Virus record (IMG/VR): IMGVR_UViG_3300030328_002692 | Location: 1 to 64,000 of that record | Length of the DNA stretch: 64,000 bases | Reading direction: 5' to 3' (one strand) | Source of the DNA: a virus | Shown here: positions 2,344 through 25,517 of the stretch, piece by piece | Layout of the letters: every line of letters starts with the position of its first letter | Position numbering within the stretch: position 1 is the first letter of the stretch | The notes under the pieces: model-generated | What the model was told of the DNA's origin: nothing | The model's database searches: none | Seen by the model: the letters and a program-made list of their open reading frames with translations, nothing else | Position numbers and translations under genes: made by a program

Positions 2344-2670
2344 ATGGCAAATACAAATGCAAAAGCTAGACCTAAAAACTATACAGATGAGATGGTCGCT
2401 CAGATGACAGAGGCTTACACAGCTAATCCAACAAGAGAAACTGTGGACACTCTAGCCAAAGAACTTGGCAAATCTGTAAGAAGCATTATTGCTAAACTTT
2501 CAAGAGAAGGCGTTTATGTAGCTCAGCCTAAAGTAACCAAAACAGGCGAGCCCGTAGTAAGAAAAGCAGAACTAGTATCAGTAGTTGAAGCTCACTTCGG
2601 TATAGCATTACCAACTCTTGTAAAAGCTAGCAAAGCTGACTTACAAAGATTAGTTGATAACATCAGCTAA
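2344..2670 (+). CDS. HTH DNA-binding protein (phage paralog family), 108 aa
   Basis: This is a predicted DNA-binding protein. A helix-turn-helix-like N-terminal domain carries NPTRETVDTLAKELGKSV and IIAKLSREGVY (about residues 28-58). A linker with KTGEP and a C-terminal segment LPTLVKASKADLQRLV follow. It is closely similar to the protein at 5789 and more distantly to those at 15034, 19241 and 7456 (minus). The start at 2344 is chosen for AAGGA 7 nt upstream and because the paralogs also begin MA. The in-frame ATG at 2311 sits near the transcription start. Similar proteins are familiar from marine phages; their targets are unknown to me. Confidence 0.8.
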   Translation: MANTNAKARPKNYTDEMVAQMTEAYTANPTRETVDTLAKELGKSVRSIIAKLSREGVYVAQPKVTKTGEPVVRKAELVSVVEAHFGIALPTLVKASKADLQRLVDNIS

Positions 2671-2740
2671 GAACTCCCAAAGGCAGAGGGCGGATTGAAA
2701 ATAAACGCCCTCATAAGCCCGAACTGTTTTCGGAGTGCTT
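2669..2740 (+). other. Structured 3' UTR element
   Basis: A strong hairpin GAGGGCG/CGCCCTC (2686-2692/2706-2712) is flanked by an outer helix AAGnACTCC/GGAGTnCTT (2669-2677/2732-2740). A second small hairpin CCGAA/TTCGG (2719-2723/2729-2733) competes for two bases. There is no T-tract, so it may be an RNA stability or protein-binding element rather than a terminator. Confidence 0.5.
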
Positions 2741-2784
2741 AAAGAAATACGCAGTAAATATCTTAAGCAATCCAAAAAAAGTTC

Positions 2785-2813
2785 TTGACTTGGCAGTTAA
2801 AATTTTGTATAAT
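2785..2813 (+). promoter_or_regulatory. Promoter of the large non-coding RNA
   Basis: TTGACT (2785-2790), 17 bp, TATAAT (2808-2813), preceded by AAAAAAAGTTC as in other phage promoters. Predicted start is at about 2820. No gene follows on the plus strand for nearly 1 kb. Confidence 0.8.
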
Positions 2814-2819
2814 ATATAT

Positions 2820-3712
2820 AGAAATTGAGAGAACAAGGGAAGCCTCAAAAACGCAAGTAGAAATATGAGCATTAGCCATCATCTCTACAGCAAGAGGCTC
2901 CCAACTCCGAGCTCTAACCACATTAAGAGCTGTAGCAACAAAACCATGTGGCGCAGACTGATAGCGATAACAATAGTAGTAATTGAGCCGTAGATTATGA
3001 CTAGACAATCTCGGGAGTGGAACGCTCTTTTATAAGGCAGTAATCCTACAACGCGTGGAGATAGTATCAATAAGCAGTTGGTAGTAGTAAGCCCAAGTAA
3101 GAAAACTATCCCCACATCACTTGGCGATGGGATATAAAAAAGTGGCAGTCCTATACGGCATAGCCCACCTAAGAAGGAGCCCCAAGCGTCTTGCAACACG
3201 AAAGCAACGAGCACTCTGATAGATATTGGCGACCACCTGTGTAAACAGTAAGGATAGCAAGGTTGGGCAAGAAGAACGCTCCCAACATCAGCGACAATAA
3301 TCCGAAAGGAGAGCAAAGCGAAGTTGAAGAGAGTAGCCACAATCGTTTGAGGTTAGCTGTAAAGAAATCCGAGATACAGGCAAAGAGAGTAGACTTATAC
3401 GCAGGACTAACCCAAAGGGATTAACACGCCTCTGTAACCAAATTGCCTGTGTGGTAGACTTGGTAGACAAGCGATAACAAAGTAGCTAGACAGATTGAGA
3501 GTGCTATAGTTATGAACTTACGGGGAAGACCTAAACCAATGTGCGAAATAGCTTAAGTAAGCATTGGCAAGGGCAAAGTAGTCATAAGTCCTTTACTCAC
3601 GCAGGCAGACACAGTAGTAGGGTATGAGTTATCCCACGCTGAAGGAATAAAACTTGGAGTAGCAAATTGCGAAACATACTTTTTCAACCCAGCCAAGTCG
3701 CTGGGTTTTTTT
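2820..3712 (+). ncRNA. Large structured non-coding RNA (about 890 nt), candidate GOLLD/ROOL-type
   Basis: The stretch has its own promoter and intrinsic terminator, no plus-strand ORF, and visibly higher GC than neighbouring genes. Helices found by eye: GGG-a-AGCCTC/GAGGCTCCC (2837-2846/2894-2902); AGCTCT/AGAGCT (2910-2915/2926-2931), whose loop CCACAT (2918-2923) can pair with ATGTGG (2946-2951) as a pseudoknot; CATC/GATG inside TATCC/GGATA (3107-3134), whose loop ACTTGG pairs with CCAAGT (3093-3098); CTGT-gtaa-ACAG (3237-3248); TCC-gaaa-GGA (3301-3310); ACAGGCAA/TTGCCTGT (3376-3383/3443-3450); CCAATG/CATTGG (3536-3541/3562-3567). Phages are known to carry giant ornate RNAs (GOLLD, about 800-900 nt; ROOL, shorter). 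Size and setting fit GOLLD, but I cannot verify class membership by sequence. Confidence 0.75.
3686..3712 (+). terminator. Intrinsic terminator of the large RNA
   Basis: AACCCAGC (3686-3693), 6-nt loop, GCTGGGTT (3700-3707), and a run of seven T ending at 3712. This is a canonical Rho-independent terminator. Confidence 0.9.
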
Positions 3713-3733
3713 ATGCCCAGCTGAAAATAAATC

Positions 3734-3762
3734 TTGACATATTAATAAAGGCGTGATATAAT
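3734..3762 (+). promoter_or_regulatory. Consensus sigma70 promoter of the 3.8-6.4 kb operon
   Basis: TTGACA (3734-3739), 17 bp, TATAAT (3757-3762). Unlike several others it is followed by a conventional leader of about 40 nt with AGAAGGAG before the ATG at 3809. Confidence 0.85.
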
Positions 3763-3808
3763 ATACATATTAAAAAATAAAATAGAAAATTTTAGAAGGA
3801 GAAGCGAT

Positions 3809-4024
3809 ATGAACTTAACATTTTTAAGCAAAACAGACAAAGACCTTCATGCTATGCGTTTACAACAAGACAGCGATGGCAAAGAGGCAAGACGCGAAAT
3901 CCAAAGAAGAAAATTAGTAGGATATTGCGATGGCACAAACATCACTTGGGTAGACCCTAAAGCCGAAGTTGAGACACAGTCACGAGTTGGCACAGTTATC
4001 ACTTACACTAAAGGGAGTAGATAA
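3809..4024 (+). CDS. Hypothetical protein, 71 aa
   Basis: First gene of a compact operon of small genes. AAGGAG lies 8 nt upstream of the ATG. The protein is charged, with the pattern KEARREIQRRKLVGY and WVDPKAE, and has no membrane segment. The start of the next gene follows the stop codon directly. I do not recognise it. Confidence 0.7.
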   Translation: MNLTFLSKTDKDLHAMRLQQDSDGKEARREIQRRKLVGYCDGTNITWVDPKAEVETQSRVGTVITYTKGSR

Positions 4025-6362: not shown

Positions 6363-6572
6363 ATGTATGAAAGGTGCGGGGCAGTTGTGCGTCAACATAA
6401 GAACCATACCATCCCCGCCATACATTCTTAACTAAACCGTAGCGGGGCTGTTCAGCCCTCAACGCTATAACCTTAACTAAAACTGCAACGGGGCAGTATA
6501 ATTTCTATAAGTCTAGGGGAAATTTGCACAGGTATAGTTGCAATTTGATGTAGTCCATTAAGTTTTATGGAC
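6363..6572 (+). other. Structured untranslated 3' region
   Basis: ATGTATG (6363-6369) pairs with CATACAT (6419-6425), stacked on GCGGGG/CCCCGC (6376-6381/6413-6418), with an inner GTTG/CAAC hairpin. Further hairpins are AGCG-GGGCT/AGCCC-CGCT (6441-6466) and GTCCAT/ATGGAC (6553-6572). TTAACTAAA followed by CGGGGC recurs as a direct repeat (from 6428 and 6473). No terminator T-run was seen. It may be an RNA processed from the operon. Confidence 0.5.
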
Positions 6573-6667
6573 AAAAATAAATTTTGAATTGGCGTAAGTT
6601 ATTGGGATTAATAAGTGGATAAATTAGAGGGTTTTGTAGTAAATTAGTTTAGATGTTGATAACCCCG

Positions 6668-6696
6668 TTGAAGTGGAGTTTGAATCGTGGTATAAT
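6668..6696 (+). promoter_or_regulatory. Promoter-like site (weak -35)
   Basis: TTGAAG (6668-6673), 17 bp, TATAAT (6691-6696). No downstream gene on the plus strand before 7558. Confidence 0.4.
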
Positions 6697-6853
6697 TGAT
6701 TGCTTTAATCGCATAACAAACAACGATTAACGAGATATCGGCTTTCGCTTCATCTCCTTCTAGGGAAGGATATTCGCTCGGCGATACTCTTTCGTTAGAT
6801 TTTGTTGAGTGTATGAATTGTGGTTAGCTAGGTTATTATCAATTTATGTATAT

Positions 6854-6882
6854 ATTATACCACAATTTTAACAAAATAGCAA
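6854..6882 (-). promoter_or_regulatory. Promoter-like site (weak -35), minus strand
   Basis: Minus strand TTGCTA (6877-6882), 17 bp, TATAAT (6854-6859), reading left into the non-coding stretch 6363-6850. Confidence 0.4.
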
Positions 6883-6965
6883 GAGGTGTTTTTGATGACC
6901 TCATCGAAACGCGGGTCTGGGAAGGTTTTAATTAACAGAAAAAAGTGTAATTTTTAAGTAGGAAG

Positions 6966-7199
6966 TTATAATTTACCCCGTTTGGAGAAGAAGCCTCGCT
7001 GAGGTTTTAACATTTGTTCCTTTTGTCTGCGTAATTCTCTCCTGCGAGCAGCGTTTTTTAGGCGTTGTTTCTTCTGTGCAGGTTTTTCATAAAATTCTTT
7101 CTCTCGGAGTGCTTCTAGTTTGCCACTTCTTTTAACTTTATTCCTAAATTGCCTTAACATTCTGTCAAAGTTGGGTTGTTGTGGTCTGCCTCTCCTCAT
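6966..7199 (-). CDS. rpsU: Ribosomal protein bS21, phage-encoded
   Basis: A 77-aa, highly basic protein. The bS21 signature is clear: FDRMLRQFRNKVKRSGKLE (residues 11-29), LREKEFYEKP (31-40) and a following Lys/Arg-rich helix ending RRRELRRQKEQ. Cellular bS21 is a 30S protein beside the mRNA exit and anti-Shine-Dalgarno region and is needed for initiation on many mRNAs. Phage bS21 copies are known and are thought to replace the host protein. It overlaps the upstream HTH gene by ATGA and has no Shine-Dalgarno of its own, so it is probably translated by coupling. The Gln/Lys-rich C-terminus ending SKRGKL is longer than usual. Confidence 0.92.
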   Translation of the reverse strand: MRRGRPQQPNFDRMLRQFRNKVKRSGKLEALREKEFYEKPAQKKQRLKNAARRRELRRQKEQMLKPQRGFFSKRGKL

Positions 7200-7456
7200 C
7201 TATGTTTGCTTTTGCGTGGAATAATTTTCGTTCTGTCTTTATGTATGCTAGTGATAGCGTGAGGTGGTGTTGTCTTGCGAACTTTGATATCTCGCTTGGT
7301 GTCAAATGTCCAACCACGCTTTCTTAAGTAATGAACTTTAGAATGTATCGCTGAAACCGATTTGTTAAAGTGTTTGGCACACTCAGCGGCTGAATGCTTG
7401 CCATACAGTTTCTTTAGTTCGCGAACTTGCTCGTCTGTCCATTTATTATTTTTCAT
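7196..7456 (-). CDS. HTH (Myb/SANT-like) protein, 86 aa, leaderless
   Basis: The N-terminal domain KWTDEQVRELKKLYGKHSA followed by FNKSVSAIHSKVHYLRKRG (about residues 5-48) is a predicted Myb/SANT-like helix-turn-helix. It is distantly related to the phage HTH family at 2344, 5789 and 19241. The C-terminal 35 residues are basic and low in hydrophobics. The ATG is 7 nt from the -10 hexamer, exactly at the predicted +1, so the mRNA should be leaderless. It forms a two-gene operon with rpsU and is probably a regulator, possibly of the divergent ppk2 promoter. Confidence 0.75.
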   Translation of the reverse strand: MKNNKWTDEQVRELKKLYGKHSAAECAKHFNKSVSAIHSKVHYLRKRGWTFDTKRDIKVRKTTPPHAITSIHKDRTKIIPRKSKHR

Positions 7457-7462
7457 GAGTGT

Positions 7463-7491
7463 ATTATAGCAAAATTTAAGGTAGAAGTCAA
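7463..7491 (-). promoter_or_regulatory. Promoter of the HTH-rpsU operon
   Basis: Minus strand TTGACT (7486-7491), 17 bp, TATAAT (7463-7468), upstream context AAAATAGTTC. Divergent from the ppk2 promoter, with 31 bp between their -35 elements. Confidence 0.8.
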
Positions 7492-7522
7492 GAACTATTT
7501 TCAGTTGGGGTCAATATATTTC

Positions 7523-7551
7523 TTGACTTGGCTTCAATATTTTAGTATAAT
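7523..7551 (+). promoter_or_regulatory. Promoter of the ppk2 operon
   Basis: TTGACT (7523-7528), 17 bp, TATAAT (7546-7551). The ATG of ppk2 starts 7 nt after the -10 ends, at the predicted +1. Confidence 0.82.
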
Positions 7552-7557
7552 AATAGT

Positions 7558-23250: not shown

Positions 23251-25517
23251 AAGTAGCAATAATTGAATCAAAGATGTCCAGAACTGATTGGGCAGACCGC
23301 TTTGATGGTGCGTTTGAGTTTGACAGGTATGCCCTGTGTTCAGACGCTAGAAAGAAAAAGATTTTAAAAGCAGACGTAGATATAGAGATTAACCTTGATG
23401 ATTACACTTGGGTAGTACTTGTTGGCTCAGAAGCCTTGAAGTATTACACAAGTGTAAATTCTATCACAGAATATAGTGGTAGATGTGTAGATGACAAGTT
23501 TCTTCCTGTAATCAATCCTGCTATGCTTTCGTTTAAACCTGAGGCAAAACCTTTATGGGACGAGAGCAAAAAGAACATACAAGAATTTATTAGTGGAGAC
23601 TTGGTAGTAGCGCAAGTAACAGAAGAACAAGCTTTGGGTATAGATACTGAAGAAGAAGCAAGAGAGTTCTTGCAGGAAGCATTAGACCACCCAAACAAGT
23701 TTATAGCACTCGACTCGGAGACAACAGGACTCTATCCAAGAGATGGATATATGATTGGATTTAGTCTATCTTATAAGAAGGATATGGGAGCTTATATACT
23801 AACTGATGTTATCACGCCAGACATTGAAGAAATAATGCAAAAGATATTTGACACAAAGATAGTAGTGTTTCATAATGCTAAGTTTGACTTGGCTTTCTTT
23901 GAGTATCATTTCAACTTCAAGTTTCCACGCTTTGAAGATACTATGCTTCTTCACTATTGCTTGGAAGAACAGCCAGGTACACACGGGCTAAAACAACTTG
24001 CAATGAAGTACACAGCTTATGGTGATTATGAGAAACCAATGCACGATTGGATTGATGGATATAGAAAGTCACATGGAGTACTTAAAGCAGACTTTCAATG
24101 GGATAGTATTCCATTTAGTGTTATGAAAACATATGCTGCAATGGACGCAGTAGTAACTCTATTGGTATTTGAAAAATTATATCCAGCAGTTAAAAAGAAT
24201 CCTAAGCTATGGTCAGTATATGAAAATATACTTATACCTGGCTGTCGTTTTCTAACAGATTTGCAAGACAATGGAGTGCCTTTTGATAAAGACAGATTAG
24301 AAAAGGGTAGAGATTTAATGCAGGCAGATATTGATGCAGCAGTAAACGAACTATACGAATTTGACTCAGTAGAGAAATTCGAACAAACAATGCAAAAACA
24401 ATTTAATCCAAACAGTACAGTACAGCTAAGACAATTACTGTTTGATTTTGCAGGTTTAAAACCAACAGGCAAAAAGACTGGTACAGGCGCACATTCAACA
24501 GATGCGGAAGTACTAAAACAATTAGCAGAAGAACACGAAATACCAAAGCATATTCTTAGCATAAGACAAAAGTCAAAGATTAAGAATACATATTTGGATA
24601 AGATATTACCACAACTTGATAGAGATGAGAGGTTGCGTACAGGCTTTAATCTGCACGGCACAACATCAGGTCGTTTATCTTCTAGTGGTAAAATGAATAT
24701 GCAACAAATACCTAGAGATAATCCTATTGTAAAGGGCTGTATAAAAGCTAAAGAAGGTAATAAGATTGTTGCAATGGACTTAACAACTGCAGAAGTGTAT
24801 GTTGCTGCTGTACTTGCTGATGATAAAAATCTTATGAATATATTTAGAGAGGGTGGTAACTTCCACTCTAATATTGCAAAATTAGTATTCTCACTCCCAT
24901 GTGAAGCTGATGAAGTTGCAGAATTATATCCAACACAAAGACAGGCAGCTAAGGCTGTCACCTTCGGCATAATGTATGGTGCTGGGGCCGCTAAAATATC
25001 TCAGCAAGTTACAGCAGACTCAGGAAAATACTTTAGTAAACAAGATGCGCAAGAAGTAATTGATGATTACTTTAGACAGTTCCACAAACTAAAAGCATGG
25101 ATTGATAAGAGTAGTAAATTTATTATGGATAATGGATTTATTTATGGCGCTACAGGAAGAAAGAGAAGACTGCCGAATGTTAAGTCTGATAATCAAGGAA
25201 TACAAGGTCATGAAGTTAGGTCTGGATTGAATTTCTTAGTTCAATCAGTAGCTTCTGATATTAACTTACTTGGTGGAATAGATATGCAAGAATACATAAA
25301 AAGGACTGGAATGAAGTCCAAAATATTCGCTCTAGTACATGACTCAATTCTAGCAGAAGTGCCAGAAGATGAGATAGAACATTATTCAGAAAAATTACAA
25401 AGTTTTATTCAGCAAGATAGAGGATTCAGTATACCAGGTGTGCCAGTAGGGTGTGACTTTGATGTACATGATGATTATTCTCTAGGCAAGTTTGAGAAAA
25501 TGTATGAGGGGCTGTAG
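23247..25517 (+). CDS. polA: Family A DNA polymerase with 3'-5' exonuclease
   Basis: 756 aa. The exonuclease domain has DSETTGL (near residue 155, Exo I), VFHNAKFDLAFF (Exo II) and YAAMDAVVTL (Exo III). The polymerase domain has GRLSSSGKMNMQQIPRD, motif A AMDLTTAEVYVA (near 510), motif B RQAAKAVTFGIMYG (near 565) and motif C LVHDSILAEV (near 697). No 5'-nuclease domain is present; a separate flap endonuclease is encoded at 33829. Motif A reads DLTTAE rather than DYSQIE, and motif C reads HDS rather than HDE, a divergent but catalytically complete set. The last four codons lie inside a tRNA gene. Confidence 0.93.
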   Translation: MKVAIIESKMSRTDWADRFDGAFEFDRYALCSDARKKKILKADVDIEINLDDYTWVVLVGSEALKYYTSVNSITEYSGRCVDDKFLPVINPAMLSFKPEAKPLWDESKKNIQEFISGDLVVAQVTEEQALGIDTEEEAREFLQEALDHPNKFIALDSETTGLYPRDGYMIGFSLSYKKDMGAYILTDVITPDIEEIMQKIFDTKIVVFHNAKFDLAFFEYHFNFKFPRFEDTMLLHYCLEEQPGTHGLKQLAMKYTAYGDYEKPMHDWIDGYRKSHGVLKADFQWDSIPFSVMKTYAAMDAVVTLLVFEKLYPAVKKNPKLWSVYENILIPGCRFLTDLQDNGVPFDKDRLEKGRDLMQADIDAAVNELYEFDSVEKFEQTMQKQFNPNSTVQLRQLLFDFAGLKPTGKKTGTGAHSTDAEVLKQLAEEHEIPKHILSIRQKSKIKNTYLDKILPQLDRDERLRTGFNLHGTTSGRLSSSGKMNMQQIPRDNPIVKGCIKAKEGNKIVAMDLTTAEVYVAAVLADDKNLMNIFREGGNFHSNIAKLVFSLPCEADEVAELYPTQRQAAKAVTFGIMYGAGAAKISQQVTADSGKYFSKQDAQEVIDDYFRQFHKLKAWIDKSSKFIMDNGFIYGATGRKRRLPNVKSDNQGIQGHEVRSGLNFLVQSVASDINLLGGIDMQEYIKRTGMKSKIFALVHDSILAEVPEDEIEHYSEKLQSFIQQDRGFSIPGVPVGCDFDVHDDYSLGKFEKMYEGL

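Follow-up and report, generated by a model that had tools for sequence, protein, structure and literature searches.

A probable family of large structured non-coding RNAs in uncultivated marine T5-like phages

What is made from almost 900 nt of phage DNA that lie between a promoter and a terminator and contain no plus-strand gene? This question is raised by positions 2820-3712 of the window, that is, the whole stretch of 64,000 nucleotides analyzed here, taken from an IMG/VR virus record of 91 kb. Judged by its genes, the source of the window is an uncultivated marine T5-like phage; its replication genes are of the T5 kind (a split ligase, an SbcC-like nuclease, an exonuclease and an SSB), and its polymerase I shares 44-45% identity with the polymerase I of cultured T5-like phages. 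The end of an HTH protein gene at 2670 is followed by the promoter of the RNA, the RNA itself, its terminator, a second promoter and the genes that start at 3809:

2344-2670, plus strand: HTH protein gene (~108 aa), with its own promoter at 2272-2301; it precedes the RNA in every locus
2785-2813, plus strand: RNA promoter, near-consensus sigma-70, its position conserved in relatives
2820-3712, plus strand: large structured non-coding RNA gene, its ends inferred from the promoter and the terminator; homologous intervals occur in relatives
3686-3712, plus strand: intrinsic terminator, with a U tract in the RNA
3734-3762, plus strand: promoter of the downstream genes (score 12/12), which separates the RNA from those genes

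The signals on which the original prediction of an untranslated RNA was based were all recovered. The promoter, TTGACT-17-TATAAT, scores 11/12; the terminator, at 3686-3707, combines a stem of 8 bp with a T tract; and the GC content, described as raised, is 43.7% in the interval, the phage having about 36%. The ~890 nt contain no plus-strand ORF longer than 53 aa, close to the mean of 48 in dinucleotide shuffles, and together with its flanks (2671-3808) the RNA forms one of the two longest gaps free of plus-strand ORFs in the rightward half of the window. Another ~1.2 kb without plus-strand ORFs, containing two small minus-strand ORFs (6966-7199 and 7196-7456), is found at 6363-7557. Folding of the window RNA on its own was uninformative (MFE z = -1.29, with 3 of 20 shuffles folding equally well) and was rejected as proof of structure; since single-sequence folding was not decisive, the structure was judged from relatives.

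The HTH protein gave access to these relatives. The protein resembles the phrog_1725 DNA binding protein and the T5 D5-like regulator phrog_323; its AlphaFold model is all-helical (pLDDT 86), and a structure search with this model gave no significant match, only a weak helix-turn-helix likeness. Searching IMG/VR with the protein returned 80 relatives initially and more via alignment, and at least 582 contig stretches of that collection encode a relative. Among the 125 loci with enough downstream DNA, a few of which come from contigs fetched twice, there were 104 in which the nearest following plus-strand ORF of at least 80 aa was 600 nt or more away. Delimited from promoter to promoter, 105 RNA intervals of 620-1650 nt were obtained (82 non-redundant); because they were selected by the promoter pattern, the conservation of the promoter is partly by construction. 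The recurring layout, also found in the window, consists of a small HTH gene, a sigma-70 promoter, 620-1650 nt without ORFs and the next promoter, with the RNA gene in the same orientation in all loci. A terminator-like element stands ahead of the next promoter in 37 of the 82 relatives, as compared with 0-3 in shuffles. In many contigs (L088:9026-9206, L011, L014, L103 and others) a second strong promoter was observed 100-300 nt before that of the large RNA, with no long ORF between the two, perhaps driving a small companion RNA.

In 11 of 12 contigs the polymerase I matched that of the window, ten at 64-67% identity and one partially at a contig end, and the RNA thus marks one uncultured lineage. 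Isolate phages yielded no match to the HTH protein (tblastn of the collection) nor to the DNA of the clade-II RNAs described below, and the weak blastn matches that they did give were rejected as homologues, since they corresponded to T5-type promoters before protein genes. Neither the 128-aa protein encoded downstream nor a search with the terminator pattern led to further members, and L094, an IMG/VR pattern match, was discarded because its contig is GC-rich and the match is due to chance.

The best-populated clade, clade II (23 sequences with a mean identity of 60%, the window not belonging to it), was used to look for covariation. Every pair of columns was scored by an APC-corrected G-test, and the null came from alignments simulated along the tree using Fitch substitution counts; the procedure re-implements the R-scape approach without being R-scape itself, and its E-values are approximate. 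Over all pairs, 8-9 reached E<=0.05, all of them Watson-Crick; the significant pairs were Watson-Crick in at least 85% of the sequences, a level that column pairs taken at random reach in 9.8% of cases. Of the 112-115 pairs that make up the RNAalifold structure, 25-26 were significant. As the first alifold z controls were contaminated by a terminator, clean coding controls were used instead: the upstream gene of the same loci gave no match in the all-pairs test and one in the structure test, and the downstream coding DNA (906 columns, 0.9 kb) gave none in either. One covarying pair crosses a hairpin, joining a loop base with a downstream base, and is a sign of tertiary pairing. An early run on small clades had little power, and clades III, IV and L088 showed only 4-10 significant structure pairs each, and none of their Watson-Crick pairs reached significance when all pairs were tested.

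A 139-nt core could be followed in twelve sequences. Compensatory double changes affect 15 of its 24 pairs, 99% of the cells are paired, and in one helix all 7 pairs have changed with zero breaks; none of 500 shuffles reached any of these measures, and pairing fell to 33-38% when the partner was shifted by one column. A covariance model of the core (R1) recovered 31 loci at E<0.01 (approximate, the calibration having been shortened), all on the plus strand within the RNA gene, and had no match elsewhere in 648 kb. This core is absent or unrecognizable in the window RNA, and is thus not universal in the family.

By alignment, the window RNA is a divergent family member: its neighboring gene is 76-82% identical to those of the closest relatives, while the RNA aligns over only 15-47%. 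The following elements could be compared:

2837-2902, plus strand: 5' domain, with P1 (2837-2840/2899-2902 and 2842-2846/2894-2898) and P1b (2857-2861/2884-2888)
2865-2879, plus strand: bulged-A hairpin of the 5' domain (2865-2867/2877-2879 and 2869-2870/2875-2876, A2868 bulged, loop AUUA at 2871-2874)
2988-3014, plus strand: module 'GAGCCGUAGAU...AUCUCGGGAG', with a helix at 2992-2996/3007-3011; a pattern scan matches the same gene in other phages
3595-3629, plus strand: 3' helix ACUCA/UGAGU (3595-3599/3625-3629)

The MFE shape of the 5' domain is the same as in L064 and L066, both of which carry the core, and the part aligned with them contains no broken pair and three compensatory changes (C2843-G2897 versus A-U, A2861-U2884 versus U-A and A2865-U2879 versus C-G). 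Both remaining helices show compensation among clade-I relatives: that of the module is kept in 12 relatives, with five compensated cells and one broken, and the 3' helix occurs in seven relatives, one of its pairs being compensated in 7 of 7 and none broken. Beyond these three elements, most helices of the window RNA are predicted only. The structure expected by the original prediction is thus supported for the family in clade II, and for the window member in the 5' domain and two helices. Its two proposed pseudoknots (2910-2951 and 3093-3134) correspond to real complementarities in the sequence and, without comparative proof, remain candidates; the second is compatible with L027, the sole relative aligning there, and the first lies in a region not alignable in other relatives. 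The hairpin at 2865-2879, AUG(A)GC-AUUA-GCCAU, has a layout like that of the MS2 coat-protein operator; as its loop varies in relatives (AUUA, AAUA, UUCG, CUCG), this likeness was set aside as convergence and probably coincidence.

The comparison of relatives also revealed how the RNA is built. The promoter-proximal 5' domain and the terminator are kept and the interior is variable. The bulged-A hairpin recurs with stems AUUG/CAAU, AUUU/GAAU, UUCC/GGAA, UUUG/CAAA, CUG/CAG and AUG/CAU, capped by loops that are unrelated but stable. In the window RNA the module 'AUUGAGSCGUAGAU' is located near nucleotide 200, in L088 near 470, a difference in position which implies that modules move. Relative to dinucleotide shuffles, hairpins capped by UNCG (25 vs 3.8), GNRA (36 vs 13) and CUYG (10 vs 1.4) tetraloops are enriched 2.7- to 7-fold, other tetraloops are not, and the AGUA/GAA bulged-G motif is modestly so (15 vs 5.6). 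In the family, the 11-nt tetraloop receptor (CCUAAG/UAUGG) was not enriched, two-fold symmetric RUAA internal loops were not significant, and palindromic (kissing) hairpin loops were, if anything, depleted (75 vs 97-150 in shuffles). The RNA evolves faster than the adjacent gene; where the genes are 75-80% identical, just 34% of the RNA can be aligned. These comparisons portray a mosaic, fast-evolving family.

Taken as a whole, the data make it probable that a large structured non-coding RNA, acting in trans as a folded scaffold, is encoded at 2820-3712 by a gene of its own, and that its family marks one marine T5-like lineage. Synteny, an own promoter and terminator, the lack of a long conserved plus-strand ORF, a supported family structure, a shared 5' domain and the lack of any Rfam match are the established parts of this reading. 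As the promoter is of the T5 type and near-consensus, the RNA would be made in high amount, and probably early, by the host sigma-70 RNA polymerase. Folding while it is transcribed, it would form a chain of hairpin domains and act as a folded scaffold or RNP, as is thought for GOLLD, ROOL and the RNA of phage ICP1. An mRNA leader or a replication primer is disfavored because of the terminator and the separate downstream promoter, and the RNA would not act as an antisense RNA either. Peripheral modules would be swapped and rebuilt quickly, the 5' domain, start and end being kept. Self-assembly of the GOLLD/ROOL type into an oligomeric cage is possible by analogy, with no positive sign of it found among the palindromic loops. 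A bolder version, which we hold to be unlikely, sees a modular RNA machine in which exchangeable hairpin domains, carried by a constant 5' scaffold, assemble into a large particle during infection; such a particle, made of RNA alone or with phage proteins, would add a third ornate architecture to those of GOLLD and ROOL, and one that would evolve by domain shuffling.

The rapid turnover makes a serious rival, even if a rather improbable one, of the idea that the RNA is an anti-defence decoy, an abundant and fast-changing bait occupying a host defence nuclease, sensor or toxin. Module swapping would then be the trace of an arms race, and the strong promoter, the mosaic modules and a turnover far above that of the neighboring gene all fit. 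However, almost every member of the lineage has kept the RNA, which is not typical of accessory anti-defence genes, no defence-linked neighbors were identified, and rapid drift is also normal for a structural RNA.

It is also doubtful that the RNA works in a CsrB- or antisense-like way, as a sponge for proteins or a regulator by base pairing, with the adjacent HTH protein or mRNAs as its targets. The HTH gene adjoins the RNA in every locus, and the motifs AGUA (1110 vs 666) and UAAGUCC (50 vs 5) are over-represented. Nevertheless, AGUA shows no preference for unpaired positions (0.49, as compared with 0.49-0.63 for words of the same composition), which leaves a sponge acting through unpaired AGUA unsupported, and except for A-rich linkers there is no long conserved single-stranded stretch.

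GOLLD and ROOL, homo-oligomeric RNA nanocages of 14 and 8 subunits, respectively (PMC12286853), were named in the original prediction as possible relatives. A divergent GOLLD or ROOL RNA is now largely refuted and very improbable, despite the similar size, phage origin and own promoter. The GOLLD model RF02032 (gathering score 150 bits) had no match at E<=10 in six phage records, nor did the ROOL model RF03087 (99.1 bits), the latter in a search without a positive control, and neither appeared in a cmscan of the window region and eight relatives, where no family of the whole of Rfam reached its threshold. The accession given for GOLLD, RF01998, actually denotes group-II-D1D4-1, a group II intron domain, which the window RNA does not match either. 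GOLLD resembles the new RNA in being phage-encoded, about 800 nt long, stand-alone and ornate, with variable and conserved regions. In GOLLD, however, the 3' region is universally conserved and the 5' region less so (PMC12286853), whereas here the 5' domain and the terminator are conserved and the interior is variable; furthermore, GOLLD is often found near tRNA genes, and the only tRNA of the window, at 25508, is 22 kb from the RNA. ROOL is likewise a large RNA of phages or prophages, but differs from this mosaic family of 620-1650 nt in the lack of an RF03087 match. The other suggestion of the original prediction, a new class of untranslated structured RNA, fits the absence of any Rfam match.

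In the region upstream of the RNA, the DnaA box (TTATCCACA) occurs in six perfect copies, arranged as tandem pairs at 220-271 and 1124-1143; these are unusual in a T5-like phage and possibly a replication origin or a DnaA titration site. The boxes had been predicted to adjoin the RNA; they exist, but 1.6-2.6 kb upstream. A GC-rich motif, 'GCGCCAGTG', followed by A-rich sequence is repeated on the plus strand near 46, 107, 921, 964 and 1744, within the ORF-poor sequence at 1-1770. A candidate second RNA family at 1176-1926 ("family B") proved on inspection to be a 61-aa ORF plus intergenic sequence. That 2820-3712 is a cis-acting DNA region (a replication origin or hairpin-rich regulatory DNA) and not an RNA gene would be in keeping with the DnaA boxes, but is highly improbable given the promoter at one end, the terminator at the other, the enrichment of UNCG, GNRA and CUYG RNA tetraloops and the single orientation in all loci. 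A protein gene missed through frame errors or on the minus strand is disfavored to the point of being hardly credible: a 151-aa minus-strand frame overlaps the RNA at 2885-3340 and exceeds those of all 300 shuffles, yet it has no family match, tblastn finds short pieces only where the DNA itself is conserved, the longest minus-strand ORFs of relatives are mostly of 50-110 aa and the changes are compensatory in the RNA, so that this frame is probably a side effect of sequence bias.

Returning to the stand-alone structured RNA, the large structured RNAs known from phages are only a few, of which two proved to be RNA cages. The present family is common, its natural variants are numerous and divergent enough for the structure to be solved by covariation, and the RNA is short enough for transcription and imaging. 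The family makes the purpose of large phage RNAs and the generality of self-assembly directly testable, and its module exchange represents a natural experiment in RNA domain shuffling.

The papers searched contained no description of this marine phage RNA. The large bacterial structured RNAs OLE and the raiA motif are similar in kind but cellular, and neither was matched here in Rfam. A closer parallel, and a precedent for expression, is found in the Vibrio phage ICP1, where an RNA of ~800 nt without ORFs, located between gp139 and gp140, outnumbers every other transcript (PMC7567579). Both RNAs occupy an ORF-less space of about 1 kb, end at an intrinsic terminator followed by a promoter and contain UUCG or GNRA hairpins; they differ in phage lineage, are similar in sequence only at the terminator and downstream promoter, and are not homologous. 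The ICP1 RNA (L150:10098-11108, minus strand) has no Rfam match above the gathering score and looks like another unclassified large phage RNA. From these comparisons, the RNA described here represents a family that is new but of a known kind, that of large structured phage RNAs.
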